This document shows positions 9,759-64,000 of a stretch of DNA of 64,000 nt, in pieces; the stretch's first letter is position 1, and each line of letters opens with the position of its first letter. Source of the DNA: Synechocystis sp. LKSZ1 (GTDB lineage Bacteria; Cyanobacteriota; Cyanobacteriia; Cyanobacteriales; Microcystaceae). Below the pieces are notes generated by a model, which did not search any database, was not told the DNA's origin, and was given only the letters and a program-made list of their open reading frames with translations. Both the position numbers and the translations under genes were made by a program. The DNA is taken from positions 1,426,001 through 1,490,000 of the forward strand of contig NZ_AP031572.1 in assembly GCF_040436315.1 (NCBI RefSeq), given 5' to 3'.

Positions 9759-10451
9759 TTAAGGCGTTTTAGCTAGTTCCAATTCAATCATTTTTGCCTT
9801 GAGTTTTTGGGGGTCTCCCTGGGCAATCACCCGCCCCTGTTCCAACAAGAAAGCTCCATCACAGTAATCCAGCTCTTCAAGGCGGTGGGTCACCCACAGG
9901 GCCGTGAGGCCGCGATGCTTAACCAAGCGTTGTACTTGGAGGACAAGTTCCTGCTGGGTATCGGCATCCAGGAGTGCGGTCGGTTCATCCAGCAATAAAA
10001 CTTCACAATGGCGAGCAATGGCCCCCGCAATGGCAATGCGTTGTTTTTGTCCGCCACTCAGGGCGTAGATAGGGCGACGCTCTAGATCCAATAAATTGAC
10101 GGCATTCAATGCCTCGGCCACTCGCCCCCGGACTTGTTGGGGGGATAAGTTTTCCGCCACTAAGCCAAAGGCCACATCGGCCCCCACCGTGGGCATGACC
10201 AACTGGTGGTCGGGGTTTTGAAAGACAAAACCCACGGGCTGCTGGAGAAAGACCCGGCCCGCCGTTGGCTTTAATAAACCAGCTAATAAACGGAGAAAGG
10301 TGGATTTCCCACTACCGTTGGTGCCAAGTAACATCCAAAATTGGCCCTGGGGCACCTCCAGGGAGCATCCGTTGAGAATGGGTTGTTCTGGCGTCCAGGC
10401 AAAGGAAAGGTCTTGGGCAGTAATGGCGGCGGGCAAGGGCGGGCTATCCAA
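9759..10451 (-). CDS. ABC transporter ATP-binding protein, energy-coupling-factor type
   Basis: The 230-residue protein is a single nucleotide-binding domain with Walker A GTNGSGKST, a Q-loop of the ECF/cobalt class (FVFQNPDHQLVMPTVGADVAFG), signature ALSGGQKQRIAIA, Walker B VLLLDEPTALLD and switch His in WVTHRLEEL. This Q-loop context is typical of EcfA/CbiO ATPases that drive vitamin or metal uptake. No membrane T or S component is adjacent, as is common for stand-alone cyanobacterial and plastid homologues. The substrate cannot be inferred from the sequence. Confidence 0.88.
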   Translation of the reverse strand: MDSPPLPAAITAQDLSFAWTPEQPILNGCSLEVPQGQFWMLLGTNGSGKSTFLRLLAGLLKPTAGRVFLQQPVGFVFQNPDHQLVMPTVGADVAFGLVAENLSPQQVRGRVAEALNAVNLLDLERRPIYALSGGQKQRIAIAGAIARHCEVLLLDEPTALLDADTQQELVLQVQRLVKHRGLTALWVTHRLEELDYCDGAFLLEQGRVIAQGDPQKLKAKMIELELAKTP

Positions 10452-12244: not shown

Positions 12245-13045
12245 TCAGAGACTAACGATGCCCGACCATTGGACATTTTTGGCCCCGGTGCGGCGGTAGG
12301 AAAAGAAATGGTCGGGATTTTTGTAGGTGCAGTAGGGAGCAATAGATAATTGTTCTGGTTTGAGACCAAGGTTTGTCAGTTGCAACTGATTAATACAACG
12401 CACATCGAGGCGGTAATGGTCTGGCTTGGTATCGGGTAAAAGAGGTGGCTCAGCTAGAGTCATCAGGCCTGCCAGATAGACATCCTCTGCCAGATCTGCA
12501 TCCCCAGGATCTTGGGTACTTTTCCCCACCGCCAGGGCCACCTGACGATGCACTTGATAAACTTCTCCGCTAATGGCGGGCCCCAGGGCCACTCGTAGAT
12601 CGGCTAACTGACTGCCATTCGTTAAAAATCGCTGAACCGTAACGGGCAGAATCCGTTGGGCCGTTCCTCGCCAACCCGCATGAACCGCCGCCACCTGGCC
12701 GGTGGTGACATCTCCAATTAGGGCCGGGGTACAATCCGCACTGGCCACCCAAACCGCTTGACGGGCTTGGTCACTCAAGACTCCATCAGCTCCGGGTAAT
12801 ATGGCTTCACTGTCTCCCTGGTGCATCTCGTGGGCAATTTCTTGAGGTGTGAGTACTGTATTGCCATGGACTTGCTTGACCCGAAAAACCTTAGCCTGAG
12901 GGTCTAGGGCCATCACCAAGGTTTCCGGCGTCTGGGGTGCAAAGTGCTGGGTAAAAAAACCGTGGGGCCAGGAAGCCAGAAGCTGACAGGTGAGGTAAGG
13001 CTTTTCCTGCCAAGTCTGCCATTGCCAAAGGGAGGAATCAGTCAT
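12245..13045 (-). CDS. YfiH/PgeF family protein (purine nucleoside phosphorylase/peptidoglycan editing factor)
   Basis: Members of this family (formerly DUF152 or multicopper polyphenol oxidase) are zinc enzymes with adenosine/inosine phosphorylase or deaminase activity, or they edit peptidoglycan precursors. Metal-site motifs visible are VKQVHGN, SADCTPALI and AAVHAGWRGTAQRI, and the C-terminus has APYCTYKNPDHFFSYRR. I start at the ATG at 13045 (266 residues) because family proteins begin near the WQWQT segment; an in-frame GTG at 13078 would add 11 residues. It lies about 50 bases behind the SbmA-like ABC gene on the same strand and may share its transcript. Confidence 0.88.
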   Translation of the reverse strand: MTDSSLWQWQTWQEKPYLTCQLLASWPHGFFTQHFAPQTPETLVMALDPQAKVFRVKQVHGNTVLTPQEIAHEMHQGDSEAILPGADGVLSDQARQAVWVASADCTPALIGDVTTGQVAAVHAGWRGTAQRILPVTVQRFLTNGSQLADLRVALGPAISGEVYQVHRQVALAVGKSTQDPGDADLAEDVYLAGLMTLAEPPLLPDTKPDHYRLDVRCINQLQLTNLGLKPEQLSIAPYCTYKNPDHFFSYRRTGAKNVQWSGIVSL

Positions 13046-53574: not shown

Positions 53575-53639
53575 GGTTTCTGGGTAAAAACCTCCGCTAT
53601 AATCACGCCGTCCCCCTCTTCCCCCGTTGTGTGATTCCC

Positions 53640-54659
53640 ATGGCCCAGGTGTCTTGTTTACCGGATAATCAAACCGTGCCGATTAACTCAGGAGAAACAA
53701 TCCTGGAGGCCCTCACCACTGCCGAGATTCCCATTACTCACGTTTGCGGCGGTCAGGCCTACTGCTCTACCTGTCGGATTATGCTCCTAGAAGGTATTGA
53801 AAATTGTACTCAACCCACCCAGGCTGAAGTCGCCCTAGCTAAGAGTCTGGATTTTCCCTTTCATGTGCGGCTGGCCTGTCAAACCAAGGTGACGGAGGGT
53901 AATGTTTCGGTGCGACGCCTCATCCTCGACCAAGAGGATATCAGCATTGTTGACCATCAATTTGTGAGTAAGCTGTCGGGAAATCGCAAGTTAGTGGCCC
54001 TGTTAGTGGCCAGAATCCGAGGCATCCATGATTTTGATGAAGTGAACTTTCCCTACGATGTCTTTTATGTGATGAGCCGTTATTTTCAGTCGGCTAATCA
54101 GATTATTAGCAAGTACGGGGGGAGCACGAATAACTACTTGGGAACAACCCTGGTGGCGACCTTTGGCCTAGAAGACGATGCTAATCCCCAGGAATTTACC
54201 GAGCGGGCTGTCTGGGCCGGCTTAGAAATGTTGAAGGCGGTTAAAGGCCTGAATGAATTTCTCACTCAATTGTCCTATTCCCCCATTAGTCTCAGCCTGG
54301 GCATCCACACTGGCCCAGTGGTCTTGGTGGCCGTGGATACGCAAAATCAGCAATTGGTGACGCCCATTGGCAAGGCAGTTAACTTGGCTAGCTTGATCGA
54401 ATCGGCCAATAAAGAAGGCAATACGCAACTGTTAGTGTCGGAGTCGGTGTATCGCCAAATTCAAGCAAAAGCAGTCAGCGAGCGGACGGGCCGCCTAACG
54501 ACTTCCGACGGTGAGCTTAAAATCTTTGCCATCAGTACCCTGGAGGGGGAAGCGCCTCCCTTTACTGCCAAAAATACTGGGCTAGCTGAATCCTCCCTAC
54601 TCAAGCGGGTCGCTGGTTTTATGGAGCGCTTTGCGGGCCGCAAGAGCAAACAACGTTAG
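53640..54659 (+). CDS. [2Fe-2S] ferredoxin fused to a degenerate class III cyclase domain
   Basis: From the ATG at 53640 (an in-frame GTG at 53631 adds three residues) the protein has 339 residues. Residues 1-95 form an adrenodoxin-like [2Fe-2S] ferredoxin with Cys 36, 42, 45 and 80 (HVCGGQAYCSTCR; RLACQT). Residues about 110-285 follow the class III adenylate/guanylate cyclase fold (GGSTNNYLGTTLVATFGL; SLGIHTGPVVL; GKAVNLASLIESA). The two metal-binding Asp are replaced: Arg in VARIRG and Thr in LGTT. The transition-state Arg is Leu (NLASL), so cyclase activity is unlikely. It may be a redox-responsive binding domain. It follows panB by 65 bases. Confidence 0.85.
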   Translation: MAQVSCLPDNQTVPINSGETILEALTTAEIPITHVCGGQAYCSTCRIMLLEGIENCTQPTQAEVALAKSLDFPFHVRLACQTKVTEGNVSVRRLILDQEDISIVDHQFVSKLSGNRKLVALLVARIRGIHDFDEVNFPYDVFYVMSRYFQSANQIISKYGGSTNNYLGTTLVATFGLEDDANPQEFTERAVWAGLEMLKAVKGLNEFLTQLSYSPISLSLGIHTGPVVLVAVDTQNQQLVTPIGKAVNLASLIESANKEGNTQLLVSESVYRQIQAKAVSERTGRLTTSDGELKIFAISTLEGEAPPFTAKNTGLAESSLLKRVAGFMERFAGRKSKQR

Positions 54660-58710: not shown

Positions 58711-60975
58711 CTATCGCAGTAATTCGGTCAAAAGTTGCGCTTGCAGGGCCGGGCTTAGTTGTCCTTGGCTCTGGAGACAATAGACGAGAAATTGATTAAC
58801 TTGATAGTACTGATCGAAGACCTGCTGTGCCGGTGGGGTCAAGGGCGGGAGCGTAAACCAGGCTCGCTGTTGTTGGAGAAGTTGTTGTAGTTGAGTTAAC
58901 CAATCACCGCCTTGGCTTTGCCACCAGTTCTCCAAAGCCTGGGGGTCTTGAGTCGGAGTGGGGAGGCTATTTTTAAGGATTTGCCAGGCCCTTTGACAGT
59001 CTGGGTTAAGGGAAAAACGACCTTCAAGATCCAGGGCAAAGTAAAGGTTCAGGGCCTGCTCTAGATCGAATTGGGTCGTCAGTTTCTGGGTTAAGCAACC
59101 CAGGCGATGGAAGCTAAAATCGAGGCCGAGTTCCCTGGGTAACTGTCCTGCTAGGGCCGGCTCAAGGGCAATGGCCAAACTAAAATCCTGGTTATACCAG
59201 AGGCTAAAATAAAAGGCCCGTAGGGCCGCTGGCGGATAGGATTGCCTCAAGGCCTGGACTTTTTGATCCAGGTGGTGCAGAAAAGCAGTTAACAAGGGTT
59301 GGCCTTGGCTAAAACGCTGGATACTGCCCTGGAGATGCTGAAATAGACTGTCGGCATTGGTCAATAAATTAGCCACCAATACGATCACTTCCTGCCAGGC
59401 CGGGTCGAGCATTCGATTCGTCAGCCATTGCCAATCCTGGCCAAGGTTCCCCTGACGGGCCTGGGCCACAATCTTGCGGGCGCTGAGGTAGGACTGAAAG
59501 GTTTGGTGAGAAAAGGCATAAATATTTTTGGCCCGCTCCACCAACAGACCGTGGTGAGCTTCCATCTCTTGGAGAATCGCCTCACTCTGAAGCCAAAGGC
59601 CCTCTCCCCCAGGGGGGGCTCCAGGCAGACGCACTAAGTAATCAGAAATCAGGCCTAATACCGTCTGCTTCTCAAAAAAAACCTGTCCCTGTTCCAAGGT
59701 CACTAGGGCCAGATCTCCCAGTAAGGTTAACTTATCCGCCAGACTGAAGCTTGGGTTCTGGGGTTGGCGTTGAATGCCCCGGTTGCGGTCCCATTGTTCT
59801 AGCAAAATTTCTAGGGCGGCCTGATACAGGGGAGCCCGCTGGGGAGGGAGGTCGCCCCGGTCTTGAAAGACCGTACAGATCAAATTAAGCAGGAGGGGCG
59901 TTTGGGCCAGGAGGCGCAGGGCCTGGTGTTGCCGTTGGTTAAGCACTTCGATTAATTGCTCTGCCCGGGCCGGACTAGAATCCGCAAACCAGTGGCGAAT
60001 AAAACCCTCAATTTGCGTTGGCTGAAAACGCTCCATCTCCACCGCCATGAATCCCGGTAATGGATAGACTGAGTAACCCAGTCGCCCGGTCATCACCACG
60101 GGAGTTTGCGGGTAGAGGGTCAGAAAATACTGGAGTTGTTGATAACGTTCCCCTTGGTCAAAGTCGGGAATTTCGTCCAGGCCATCGAGCAACAACAAGA
60201 TCTGACCCGTTTGCAGGAGGCCCTGAAGCTGACTGGCACTGAGGGAATAGCCTTGCCAGAGATGCCCTAGATAATCCTCTAGGCCATTGAAAGCGGGATG
60301 ACGAGCCGCGATGGCCCAAGCTTGCAGAGATACCAACCCAGGTAGATGATCTGCTGGCCCCTTTCCCTGGGCGTAGAGGAGAGCGAGGTGTTGCAGTAGC
60401 GTGGTTTTTCCCGCACCTGGATGACCCAAGACCAAGATCCGATTCTGGCCCACGAGCAGGTCAACCAGGGATTGGGCAGGAGTGCTCGCGGGACGAAGGG
60501 CCTGGAGATCCTGGATGCCTAGCCATTGCTGATGGCTCAATCGGGTCTGGACTTTGACCTCTACATAGCTATGGTTCAAAGAACGGGCGGGAGGCCCTCC
60601 CAACCAGGGGTTACGTTGGCCAGGCTGTTTTTGGAGATCCGTGACGAGGAGGGGACGTAGCCGAGAAATGAGGCTTTCCGGTGTTAATTCCGGCGGCGAT
60701 GCTGGTGAAGTAGGCCCTTTCGGTTCATCGGGTTCCTCTAGCTCATTGAATTGGGGCAAATCGGCAATATCTTCCCAATCGAGGTCTAACTGGAAACAGA
60801 TCTCCATAAAAATTTTGCGGTCAATGGCCCGGCCACTCAGGAGCTTCCAGACTGAATTCCGGGTGGAGAGGCCAGCTTGTTCCGCTAGATAGTCCTGAGT
60901 CCAGCCCTTCCGTAGTAGACATTGTTTCAGGCGAGCAATTCCCTGCTCGGAGGCGCAGAGGGAGCGCTTAACCAT
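58711..60975 (-). CDS. HTH-NACHT STAND NTPase
   Basis: The 754-residue protein starts with a helix-turn-helix-like region (about 12-70; GWTQDYLAEQAGLSTRN and VWKLLSG), then a linker and a NACHT ATPase (about 175-480). The NACHT has Walker A GHPGAGKTT (184-192), Walker B LLLLDGLDEIP (259-270) and VVMTGRLGYSV. A C-terminal helical-repeat region (about 480-754; FSHQTFQSYLSARKIV) likely senses a ligand. NACHT STAND proteins act in signalling and, in bacteria, in antiphage defence. Its ATG overlaps the stop of the preceding response regulator by eight bases, so both are translated together with the hybrid kinase operon. Confidence 0.9.
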   Translation of the reverse strand: MVKRSLCASEQGIARLKQCLLRKGWTQDYLAEQAGLSTRNSVWKLLSGRAIDRKIFMEICFQLDLDWEDIADLPQFNELEEPDEPKGPTSPASPPELTPESLISRLRPLLVTDLQKQPGQRNPWLGGPPARSLNHSYVEVKVQTRLSHQQWLGIQDLQALRPASTPAQSLVDLLVGQNRILVLGHPGAGKTTLLQHLALLYAQGKGPADHLPGLVSLQAWAIAARHPAFNGLEDYLGHLWQGYSLSASQLQGLLQTGQILLLLDGLDEIPDFDQGERYQQLQYFLTLYPQTPVVMTGRLGYSVYPLPGFMAVEMERFQPTQIEGFIRHWFADSSPARAEQLIEVLNQRQHQALRLLAQTPLLLNLICTVFQDRGDLPPQRAPLYQAALEILLEQWDRNRGIQRQPQNPSFSLADKLTLLGDLALVTLEQGQVFFEKQTVLGLISDYLVRLPGAPPGGEGLWLQSEAILQEMEAHHGLLVERAKNIYAFSHQTFQSYLSARKIVAQARQGNLGQDWQWLTNRMLDPAWQEVIVLVANLLTNADSLFQHLQGSIQRFSQGQPLLTAFLHHLDQKVQALRQSYPPAALRAFYFSLWYNQDFSLAIALEPALAGQLPRELGLDFSFHRLGCLTQKLTTQFDLEQALNLYFALDLEGRFSLNPDCQRAWQILKNSLPTPTQDPQALENWWQSQGGDWLTQLQQLLQQQRAWFTLPPLTPPAQQVFDQYYQVNQFLVYCLQSQGQLSPALQAQLLTELLR

Positions 60976-61828
60976 GGTGACTGATGAGGTAAAGCAGACG
61001 GGCCGTATCCATGAGGCGTTCTTGTTCCCAAGCCGTCCAGGGCCTGGCCTGGCGGTAGTGGAGTTGGAGAAAACCCTGAGCCGGTAGGGGTAAGATTAGG
61101 CCCTGGGGAGTTTGGAGGGCAGGGGCGAAGCTAGCCGTAGACATCGGTGTCGGCGTTGAGGGCATCGTCGCGACCAGTTGAGAAGCGTTTAGCCCGAGCT
61201 TAGCCAGGGTTGGATAGTTAGGGGCGACGGCTTCTAGGTCGGGTTCCGTGGGGCCAAGGCTGAAGACCAGTCGTTCCACCTGCCAAAAAGCCCGCAGTTG
61301 CTCTAGTAGGTTGGTTAATTGCTGAGTCCGATCTCCGCCTTGTACACCCTGGGCCAGCAAAGTTTGCATTAGGGTAATCCAAGTTTGTTGCGGCTGGATT
61401 TCGGCCCTCGGGGTTTCCTGAGCCAGGAGTCGTTTCACCCGTTGCCGTAGCACAGACCAGTGAATGGGCTTGGTGATGTAGTCCGTCGCGCCGGCTTGGA
61501 AAGCCTGGTCAATGGAATCCCGGTCATCAAGAAACGTAATCATTAGAATTGGCACCTCTGACCCTCCCGCACCTTGCCGCACCTGCTGACAACAACTAAA
61601 GCCGTCCATTTCCGGCATCATGGCATCCAGTAGCAACAGATTCGGTTGGAGTCGGCCATACTTCGCCAGGCAGTCTATCCCGTTGACCGCTTCTTCGACC
61701 CGATAGCCATCCTGTTTCAGGGCCATCACCAACAGCGCCCGAATGGTATTGTCATCATCGGTCACGAGGATCAGGGGCGCGTCTCCCGTCTCATCACTGC
61801 TAGGGGAAGAGGAGTTAGGGTTGATCAT
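60968..61828 (-). CDS. response regulator with receiver and degenerate GAF-like domain
   Basis: The 286-residue protein has a receiver (about 18-130) with the acidic TDDD, phospho-acceptor Asp68 in LLLDAMMPEMDGF, MIT and Lys120 in YITKP. The remaining 150 residues have no HTH; LILPLPAQGFLQLHYRQARPWTAWEQERLM resembles the end of a GAF domain. It therefore looks like a non-transcriptional adaptor. It sits between a hybrid kinase (50 bases upstream) and the NACHT gene, whose start overlaps its stop, so it is the likely link between them. Confidence 0.88.
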   Translation of the reverse strand: MINPNSSSPSSDETGDAPLILVTDDDNTIRALLVMALKQDGYRVEEAVNGIDCLAKYGRLQPNLLLLDAMMPEMDGFSCCQQVRQGAGGSEVPILMITFLDDRDSIDQAFQAGATDYITKPIHWSVLRQRVKRLLAQETPRAEIQPQQTWITLMQTLLAQGVQGGDRTQQLTNLLEQLRAFWQVERLVFSLGPTEPDLEAVAPNYPTLAKLGLNASQLVATMPSTPTPMSTASFAPALQTPQGLILPLPAQGFLQLHYRQARPWTAWEQERLMDTARLLYLISHHG

Positions 61829-61878
61829 TGGCTAGAAATGAGCAAGGCAAAAATGTCCGTCAAAACAGGCCCAGTCCC

Positions 61879-64000
61879 CTACAGTAAATTGAGGTAGGCC
61901 ACCAACGCTTCTCTTACTTTCGCATACTCTACTCGTAATGATTGGGCGAGTTCTGTGGCCCCTGCGAGGTTTCCCCCTCGACCCAAATTTTCCAGTTGTT
62001 TACAGCTCTGAGCAAAGGCCAGGGCCCCGAGGTTGGCACTACTAGAACCTAAGCTGTGGGCCAGTTGGCGGACTTGCAGGGGATTATCGTCGGCGATGGC
62101 CGTTTGCAATTGGTCGAGGGCAATGGGGGTCGTTTCAAGATAGTTGGGGATGATCGCTTGCAGAATCTCAGCGCCTCCCATGGCCCGAATGCCTTCAAGA
62201 ATGGGCTCATCCAAGCAGGGGGCGGCGGGTTTCGAGGCCGGATGTTCTGGGAACGTCGGGAGCGCGGTGGCGGAGGATGGCTTTGGGCTGGCGTGGGGTT
62301 TCACCCGTTGCAGGGCCGCAATTAATTCGGGTTCTCGGATTGGTTTACTGATATAGTCATCCATACCAGCCTGGAGACAGTTTTCTCGGTCTCCCTGCAT
62401 TGCGTAGGCCGTTACGGCAATAATCCAAGGCTGTTCCCAGGGAAGGGCCGTGGCTCGTAAACGACGGGTTGCGGTCATGCCATCCATTTCCGGCATTTCC
62501 ACATCCATGAGCACCACATCGTAGGGAACTTGCTGGAGCGCTGGAATCACTTCTGCTCCGTTACTAACCACATCGGCCCGATAGCCCAGTTTTTGTAATA
62601 GTAGCAAAGCAACCTGTTGATTAATACTGTTATCCTCAGCCAGCAGAATCCGTAGAGGACTCAGGGTTTTGAGCAGGGCATCCCTTTCAGGGTGGGAGAA
62701 GGGAGAACGTGTGATTTCAGGAAAGGTTTTTTTCCAGTTTGGTAGACCATCGATGACCGTTAGGGGGGGGCGACAGACCACATCGAGCAACAGATTATAG
62801 AGCTGGGATGGTTTTAAAGGGGCCTGGAGCCAACCGGCAAATTCCACTTCGGTGCGTTTTTGTAGTTCTGCGGGAGAGAGTAGAAAGGGGGCCTGGAGAA
62901 TGATGGGCAGGGCCTGACCGGCTGGGCGACGACGAATGGCTTCGGCGAGTTCAATGCCATCCAACTCCGGCATCCGTAAATCCAAGAGGGCCAAGTCAAA
63001 GGCGGGTTCCTGATTGAGCCAGAGCAGGGCCTCCCACACCGACCCCGTGGTCAGGGTTTCCATCCCCCAGGCGCGGGTCAACTGACTCAACCACTGGCGA
63101 TTAATGGCATTGTCATCCACGACCAGCAGGCGTTTTCCCCGTAATTCTGGATGCTCTGAGGGGATTAGGGAACAGGTCGTTACCCCCTGGACCGGCACCG
63201 TGAAATAAAAGCGAGTTCCCCGTTCTGCAGCGGTAGCGGGTTGACTCGGCCAAGTTGCGGGCGGCCAACCGGCCATGGCCCCTTGGCTTTCCATCCAGAT
63301 TGTTCCTCCCATGAGATCCACCAATCGCTTACAGATGGCTAACCCCAGGCCTGTTCCTCCGTACTGGCGCGTCACGGCCCCGTGGGCCTGGCTAAAGGAT
63401 TGGAACAGTCGGGATTGTTGTTCTGGGGGGATACCGATGCCCGTATCTTCGACCATGACCTGGATTTCGTAGCGCTGTTGCGTAGCCTCTAATGCCTTTG
63501 CTTCCAGTACGACCGTGAGGGCCCCCTGTTCGGTAAATTTCACCGCATTACTCAGTAAATTCACTAAAACCTGACGCAAACGCGTTAAATCGCCGAGAAC
63601 CGTCGCTGGCACCGCAGGGCCAATGCGATAGACCAAGTCTAGACCTTTGGTAAAGGCCTGACCGGCAATCAAGTCCAGGGATTCCTCTACCCAACGTTGG
63701 ATCTCCAACGGATGACGTTCCAGGGTCAGCTTACCGGACTCAATTTTAGAAAAATCCAAAATATCGTTGATCAGGGTCAACAAAGTTTCACCACTACTAC
63801 GAATGGTTTCTGCAAACTGTTGTTGTTGGGGGTTGAGGGACGTATCGAGGAGCAGGCCAGTCATGCCGATGATGGCATTCATGGGCGTGCGGATCTCGTG
63901 GCTCATGGTGGCCAGGAAGTCACTTTTGGCCCGATTGGCCATCTCTGCCACATTTTGGGCTGCTAATAATTCTTCATTCTGCTGGGTGAGACGTTCGCGG
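61879..64000 (-). CDS. hybrid sensor histidine kinase with two receivers and Hpt, 5' truncated by window edge
   Basis: The frame is open to the right edge, so the sensor N-terminus is missing. An ATG at 63951 is in frame but is preceded by a continuous coiled-coil-like codon run ([14 protein letters not shown]), so it is not the start. Counting from that ATG: His[12 protein letters not shown] (His18), HATPase NLLSNAVKF (131-139) and TGLGLAI, receiver 1 (Asp324 in LLDLRMPE), receiver 2 (Asp483 in [11 protein letters not shown]), and a C-terminal Hpt (His632 in [13 protein letters not shown]). It is a complete phosphorelay in one chain. The response regulator 50 bases downstream is its probable output partner. 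Confidence 0.93.

Follow-up and report, generated by a model that had tools for sequence, protein, structure and literature searches.

The window analysed here is a 64,000-nucleotide stretch of the Synechocystis sp. LKSZ1 chromosome (G000:C1:1426001-1490000; the source genome is complete, at 3.67 Mb). At its right edge, a single minus-strand operon encodes a hybrid histidine kinase, a receiver (REC) protein without a DNA-binding domain, and a STAND protein with helix-turn-helix (HTH), NACHT and NCH2 domains. Sequence comparison indicates that this operon is very probably (probability about 0.88) the XssS-XssR-XssQ module of a sulfated exopolysaccharide (EPS) cluster; the kinase, regulator and NACHT genes would adjoin because together they form one control module for sulfated EPS. 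The module is real and conserved, yet it is not new: the first-pass annotation of this DNA knew of no described phosphorelay-NACHT system, but excerpts of PMC8205485 show that the Xss system was published in 2021.

Match to the Xss module of Synechocystis sp. PCC 6803

According to Maeda et al. (2021; PMC8205485), the synechan cluster of Synechocystis sp. PCC 6803, carried by plasmid pSYSM, includes a kinase (XssS), a regulator (XssR) and an HTH-STAND activator (XssQ). There XssQ is a DNA-binding activator of the genes for this sulfated exopolysaccharide. By the same account, EPS rises when XssS is lost and is abolished without XssR or XssQ, and overexpression of XssQ bypasses XssR, which places XssR upstream; the published consensus of the XssQ site is AAGTTNNAC, single or tandem (PMC8205485). 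In a foreign host, XssQ and XssR are sufficient, as stated in excerpts of PMC13125312.

Among the plasmid records searched, the best match of the window NACHT protein is the NACHT gene of pSYSM (38.7% over 99%), and that of the window regulator is the response regulator (RR) adjoining it (46.4% over 97%). The kinase shares 53.6% identity over 922 amino acids (aa) with the next pSYSM gene, XssS. The xss names of these pSYSM genes are our assignment from order and description, as the record itself carries none. When XssQ was searched against the window genome, the window NACHT gene scored 472 bits and the runner-up place 24 bits; XssS likewise found the adjoining kinase at 976 bits, with the runner-up gene at 371 bits. 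The best match in both directions covers XssQ, while XssR and XssS were covered by a whole-collection or whole-genome search in one direction only.

The operon and its proteins

The layout first annotated, with HisKA, two receivers and Hpt in the kinase, a regulator lacking a DNA-binding domain, and an HTH-NACHT protein in one minus-strand operon, was borne out by the open reading frames (ORFs) and by Pfam. The XssQ-type protein, a putative HTH-NACHT-NCH2 STAND transcriptional activator of 754 aa, occupies 58711..60975 on the minus strand, as do all operon features below on that strand. Its NACHT NTPase domain (aa 179-332; 59980..60441; Pfam, 6.5e-14) has the Walker A motif GHPGAGKTT and the Walker B motif LLLLDGLDE in the alignment, and its NACHT C-terminal helical domain, NCH2 (aa 662-753; 58717..58992; Pfam, 1.1e-16), is matched by 17/17 rows of the NACHT-family alignment A1. 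The N-terminal Cro/C1-type HTH (aa 1-74; 60754..60975) is strongly conserved across the family alignment, with GLSTRNSVWK at aa 35-44, though it scores under the Pfam cut-off (HTH_26/HTH_3, E 0.02-0.03).

The XssR-type response regulator (286 aa; 60968..61828) combines a receiver domain (aa 20-132; 61433..61771), in which D24-26, D68, T98 and K120 are in place, with a C-terminal part that aligns with the GAF domain of its relatives. Response_reg is its sole Pfam match, and Pfam found no DNA-binding domain; GAF is recognised by Pfam in 15 of the 17 rows of the regulator alignment A2, the window regulator being among those without it. The eight-base overlap between regulator and NACHT gene (60968..60975), also noticed in the first annotation, stands: the RR stop lies at 60968-60970 and the NACHT start at 60973-60975, a position that agrees with the starts of the aligned relatives.

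The in-window part of the XssS-type hybrid histidine kinase (61879..64000; open frame 61879-63999) comprises HisKA, HATPase_c, REC, REC and Hpt according to Pfam. Extension past the right edge, as had been advised, recovers a kinase of 1364 aa (window-equivalent 61879-65973, up to G000 1491973) and adds a third, N-terminal receiver as well as PAS and GAF domains. The expected phosphotransfer and NTP-binding residues are present in the operon proteins, and we take them to serve those roles. AlphaFold models from single sequences had a mean predicted local distance difference test (pLDDT) score of 41 for the RR and 40 for the NACHT protein and were not used. Among solved structures, the NACHT-family profile reaches NLRC4 and NLRP3 chains only, matches that are uninformative on the function of the protein.

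Polysaccharide genes and candidate operator sites

Beyond the window edge, divergent from the kinase, lies an EPS gene cluster with a sulfotransferase, so that the triad is located at a cluster of the kind the Xss module serves. It opens with a GT2 glycosyltransferase (G000 1492129-1493157; Pfam), followed by Alg14-like and Alg13-like genes, a STAS-sugar transferase (1494616-1495563) whose pSYSM counterpart has an identical fused architecture, and the sulfotransferase (1495876-1496841). Listed after these are a GT4 gene, a Wzx-type flippase and a Poly_export gene. Two co-polymerase/polymerase candidates (1500132-1501565 and 1501501-1502922) were named from their position and from home-made profiles seeded with them; Pfam returned nothing for either.

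Sequences of the AAGTTNNAC type stand ahead of the glycosyltransferase and sugar-transferase/sulfotransferase genes, although their plain count alone is not significant. In locus L009, one AAGTTAGAC begins at 10051, 78 bp ahead of the GT2 gene, and is repeated with one mismatch 11 bp further on. The STAS-sugar-transferase gene is preceded by a pair of sites, AAGTTAGAC at 12484 and AAGTTAAAC at 12506, lying 110 and 132 bp ahead of it. Finding three sites in two upstream gaps totalling 380 bp has P ~5e-5 (both strands). Inside the window itself, AAGTTNNAC was found 7 times against 6.9 expected, the relevant sites sitting just outside; the 30 kb pSYSM stretch has 10 sites against 4.2 expected, a number reached in 0/100 shuffles.

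The window genome has a single instance of the strict tandem AAGTTARAC pattern, at the EPS cluster. Across 58 whole genomes the pattern occurs at nine places in seven genomes (a reversed-pattern control gave two places), and six of the nine precede EPS genes: a STAS-sugar transferase in three cases, GT2 in two and, recognised by eye, an Alg14-like gene in one. Three of these six (L234, L237, L238) also overlap short ORFs of 118-149 aa, which we take as spurious; of the three places outside the six, two lie within ORFs (622 and 139 aa) and one elsewhere. Strict tandems beside EPS genes were found on the 6803-like side only. A looser count, in which both members of a pair are counted, the partner may have one mismatch and one site is doubled via overlapping loci, yielded 19 tandem rows for the 20 linked loci and their extensions (724,927 bases), compared with 3 rows for the six unlinked XssQ-clade loci (100,612 bases) and 2 rows for the 18 control loci (288,253 bases). 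Exact tandem pairs were present in 4/20 linked loci (L009, L056, L058, L130), 1/6 unlinked loci (L059) and 0/18 controls.

The module may be the same and its regulon nevertheless different from, or wider than, the adjoining EPS cluster, including for example its own operon, motility genes or cyclic di-GMP genes. In a sister sub-clade the triad is mostly found among genes of other kinds, and a single site beside the kinase falls in a stretch that it shares with the kinase promoter. We nevertheless consider such a regulon unlikely here, given that the one strict tandem site of the window genome is in the EPS cluster and that two genomes of the same genus (G003, G004) have sites ahead of the same two gene kinds, GT2 and STAS-sugar transferase.

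Linkage of NACHT and two-component genes

The coupling of a phosphorelay to a NACHT protein is genuine, and its conservation is found mainly in one clade. The survey of NACHT homologues proposed in the first-pass annotation was carried out on stretches around 40 high-scoring matches from 58 relatives (50 with any match), the choice being led by score and some places being skipped, and it found kinase/REC linkage above random. The orientation of the kinase and regulator genes next to the NACHT gene varies, with divergent, convergent and co-directional layouts. In a midpoint-rooted tree of 44 NACHT proteins, which includes L110, a locus fetched for its linkage, an XssS/XssR-type gene lies within 6 kb in 17 of the 23 members of the clade containing XssQ and the window protein, and in 3 of the 21 outside it. 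In a tree of 57 proteins, a two-component gene is the immediate neighbour (≤2 kb) in 28, divided into 17/26 on the XssQ side, 3/17 in a widespread paralogous family and 8/14 in the rest. When linkage-picked loci and queries are left out, the XssQ side has 12/21 and the paralogous family 1/15 (Fisher p 0.004); two-component genes make up 19 of 75 ORFs within 2 kb in those 21 loci, compared with 11 of 241 ORFs beyond 5 kb in all 57 loci (p 1e-6).

A phylum sample of 291 genomes was examined with strict thresholds, at most three NACHT and seven regulator candidates being scored per genome and pairs being read by hand from the NACHT and regulator tables. Among the matches listed, 47 genomes had NACHT and 56 had regulator matches; 36 had both XssR-type and XssQ-type genes, of which 11 had a pair within 10 kb against 0.29 expected, and without five genomes that supply or closely resemble profile rows, 6/31 were linked against 0.26 expected.

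It had been said that the coupling would be local and accidental if homologues of the NACHT gene rarely stood next to such genes; since the linkage is conserved in relatives, it is not accidental. Receiver genes are abundant (43 matches in the window genome), and the NACHT gene might merely follow an unrelated two-component pair. But the adjacency is kept across co-directional, divergent and convergent layouts and exceeds random placement, and mutant epistasis in 6803 (excerpts of PMC8205485) speaks for a functional connection; with the linkage tests already contradicting it, chance neighbourhood is hardly credible.

The paralogous family is itself a second widely conserved HTH-NACHT-NCH2 family, mostly without two-component neighbours (3/17); its members are L063-L068, L070-L072, L074, L076, L078, L213, L214, L224, L225 and L227.

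Weighing the assignment

Several observations weigh against assigning the operon to the Xss system. The forward search covered plasmid records only, and the 6803 chromosome may carry closer paralogues; in the trees the window NACHT protein sits on a long branch, its placement beside XssQ being weakly supported. Six of the 23 XssQ-clade rows show no partner, and unlinked copies are common; in G001, of the same genus, regulator, NACHT gene and operator are on three contigs, with the NACHT gene near a contig end. As to the sites, the plain count of AAGTTNNAC in the 18 kb of L009 is not unusual (4, against a mean of 1.8, and as high in 17/200 shuffles), the looser tandem pattern also turns up at an unrelated second position of the window genome, and single intergenic sites show no clear excess (42 in 725 kb of linked loci, 9 in unlinked loci, 13 in 288 kb of controls). 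With exact tandem pairs in just 4/20 linked loci, the site is not general.

A phage-triggered role had also been suggested, which would make the operon an anti-phage or abortive-infection system: infection or stress would be perceived by the kinase, and the regulator would set off the NACHT protein, a STAND acting in defence. NACHT proteins do include defence proteins, and the window protein has a weak partial match to EruA (NCBIfam; E 3e-9, at 35 bits where the cut-off is 1000) and weak matches to PADLOC models (best E 8e-4). But an HTH stands at its N-terminus and Pfam found no effector domain in it. For the regulator, the kinase and nearby genes (10 proteins scanned: nine neighbours besides the kinase), PADLOC matched generic domains of the receiver, methyltransferase and nucleotide-cyclase kinds, and the matching 6803 protein is a proven EPS-gene activator (excerpts of PMC8205485). 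Pfam, PADLOC and NCBIfam gave no above-cut-off defence NACHT family, effector domain or defence neighbourhood, and the neighbours are polysaccharide and metabolic genes. With its matches weak or generic, we reject the defence reading, which we regard as very improbable.

Proposed mechanism

In 6803, others have shown that the kinase opposes EPS production, that regulator and NACHT protein activate it, and that the latter binds DNA; here the basis consists of best matches, linkage and candidate sites. By analogy, the XssS-type kinase would set the phosphorylation of the XssR-type receiver protein, which, lacking a DNA-binding domain, would act on the XssQ-type NACHT protein, probably by direct contact. 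This contact may let the STAND ATPase switch on and multimerise, ATP-driven switching being presumed from the STAND family. XssQ would then bind tandem AAGTTARAC-like sites via its HTH and activate the adjoining glycosyltransferase, sugar-transferase and sulfotransferase genes. The regulator would be required, and the kinase presumably acts with the same, opposing sign as in 6803. The two roles first envisaged, the regulator as adaptor and control of the HTH-bearing NACHT protein, both agree with what genetics has shown for the matching Xss system, with the REC protein as the link. An odd-looking operon is now placed in a described pathway, and two controlled promoters are predicted.

XssQ-like proteins with other partners

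Eight new loci were picked by NACHT score alone (L219, L220, L222-L227), and in five of them the NACHT gene directly adjoins a two-component gene (L219, L220, L222, L223 and L226, with L219 and L222 from one genus); none of the neighbours at those five reaches 110 bits to XssS or XssR. At L047/L229, a further XssQ-like NACHT gene is directly beside a two-component gene of another type. In the sister sub-clade, where the triad stands mostly amid other kinds of genes, the kinases seem by eye to start in the membrane, and the HTH motif has RQ (12/12 rows of A1) in place of the RN of 6803-like proteins (5/5 rows of A1). Its divergent intergenic regions share no operator by eye, save CRP-like sites in five.

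XssQ-like HTH-NACHT-NCH2 proteins may form a general phosphorelay output stage in cyanobacteria, with lineage-specific kinases and receivers, regulons beyond sulfated EPS and differing operator specificity, a proposal to which we give somewhat less than even odds. The pairing with other two-component types goes slightly beyond print in the literature searched, the supplementary gene clusters of PMC8205485 lying outside that search. If the proposal is true, phosphorylation-driven STAND switches are a recurrent signalling architecture, and confirmation of the wider pairing would make the switching of a STAND ATPase by a phosphorylated receiver a testable question.

Beside these results stand some separate observations. 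A CRP-like palindrome, GTGAN6TCAC, lies between the divergent NACHT and kinase genes of exactly one five-member sub-clade (L044 10870, L050 10509, L052 11035, L054 10955, L055 9590). It was found in 5/14 upstream regions checked, the gap upstream of the window kinase being included and without one, against a background of 23 occurrences across the 1.81 Mb of long loci retrieved; this suggests cyclic AMP control of the triad in those five. A REC-GAF-GGDEF regulator, XssR-like with an added GGDEF, is encoded at L216 8008-9489 (Pfam, L216 only), with similar proteins in L217 and L218. All three have XssS-like kinases next to them and lack a NACHT gene in the fetched stretch, which suggests that XssR is such a protein without its cyclase and with the NACHT protein as output. 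Within the window, at 53631-54659 on the plus strand, one protein is a fusion of a 2Fe-2S ferredoxin domain and an adenylate/guanylate cyclase domain.

Comparison with known systems

The pSYSM Xss module and the window operon have the same domain cores in all three proteins. In both, the triad lies by Wzx-type EPS genes with a sulfotransferase and a STAS-sugar transferase, and the same operator sequence stands ahead of the corresponding genes. The module is chromosomal here and plasmid-borne in 6803; its three genes here lie on one strand and those for the RR and the NACHT protein overlap, while the NACHT gene of pSYSM is convergent with the genes for the RR and the kinase. The kinase here begins with an additional receiver, unlike pSYSM XssS, the GAF of the window RR is unrecognised by Pfam, and one sulfotransferase was found (home-made profile, 58 kb, G000 1462001-1520000) compared with two in pSYSM.

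Bacterial NACHT defence proteins, such as EruA (NCBIfam) and bNACHT, share the NACHT domain with the window protein, which differs in having no effector domain, in reaching no more than 35 bits to EruA and in its phosphorelay and EPS partner genes. STAND transcriptional activators of the MalT, AfsR and GutR type join an NTPase switch to a DNA-binding domain, and the XssQ type couples the two likewise. Unlike them, it is a NACHT-NCH2 protein with an N-terminal Cro/C1 HTH, and it is apparently switched by a response regulator rather than by a small ligand.

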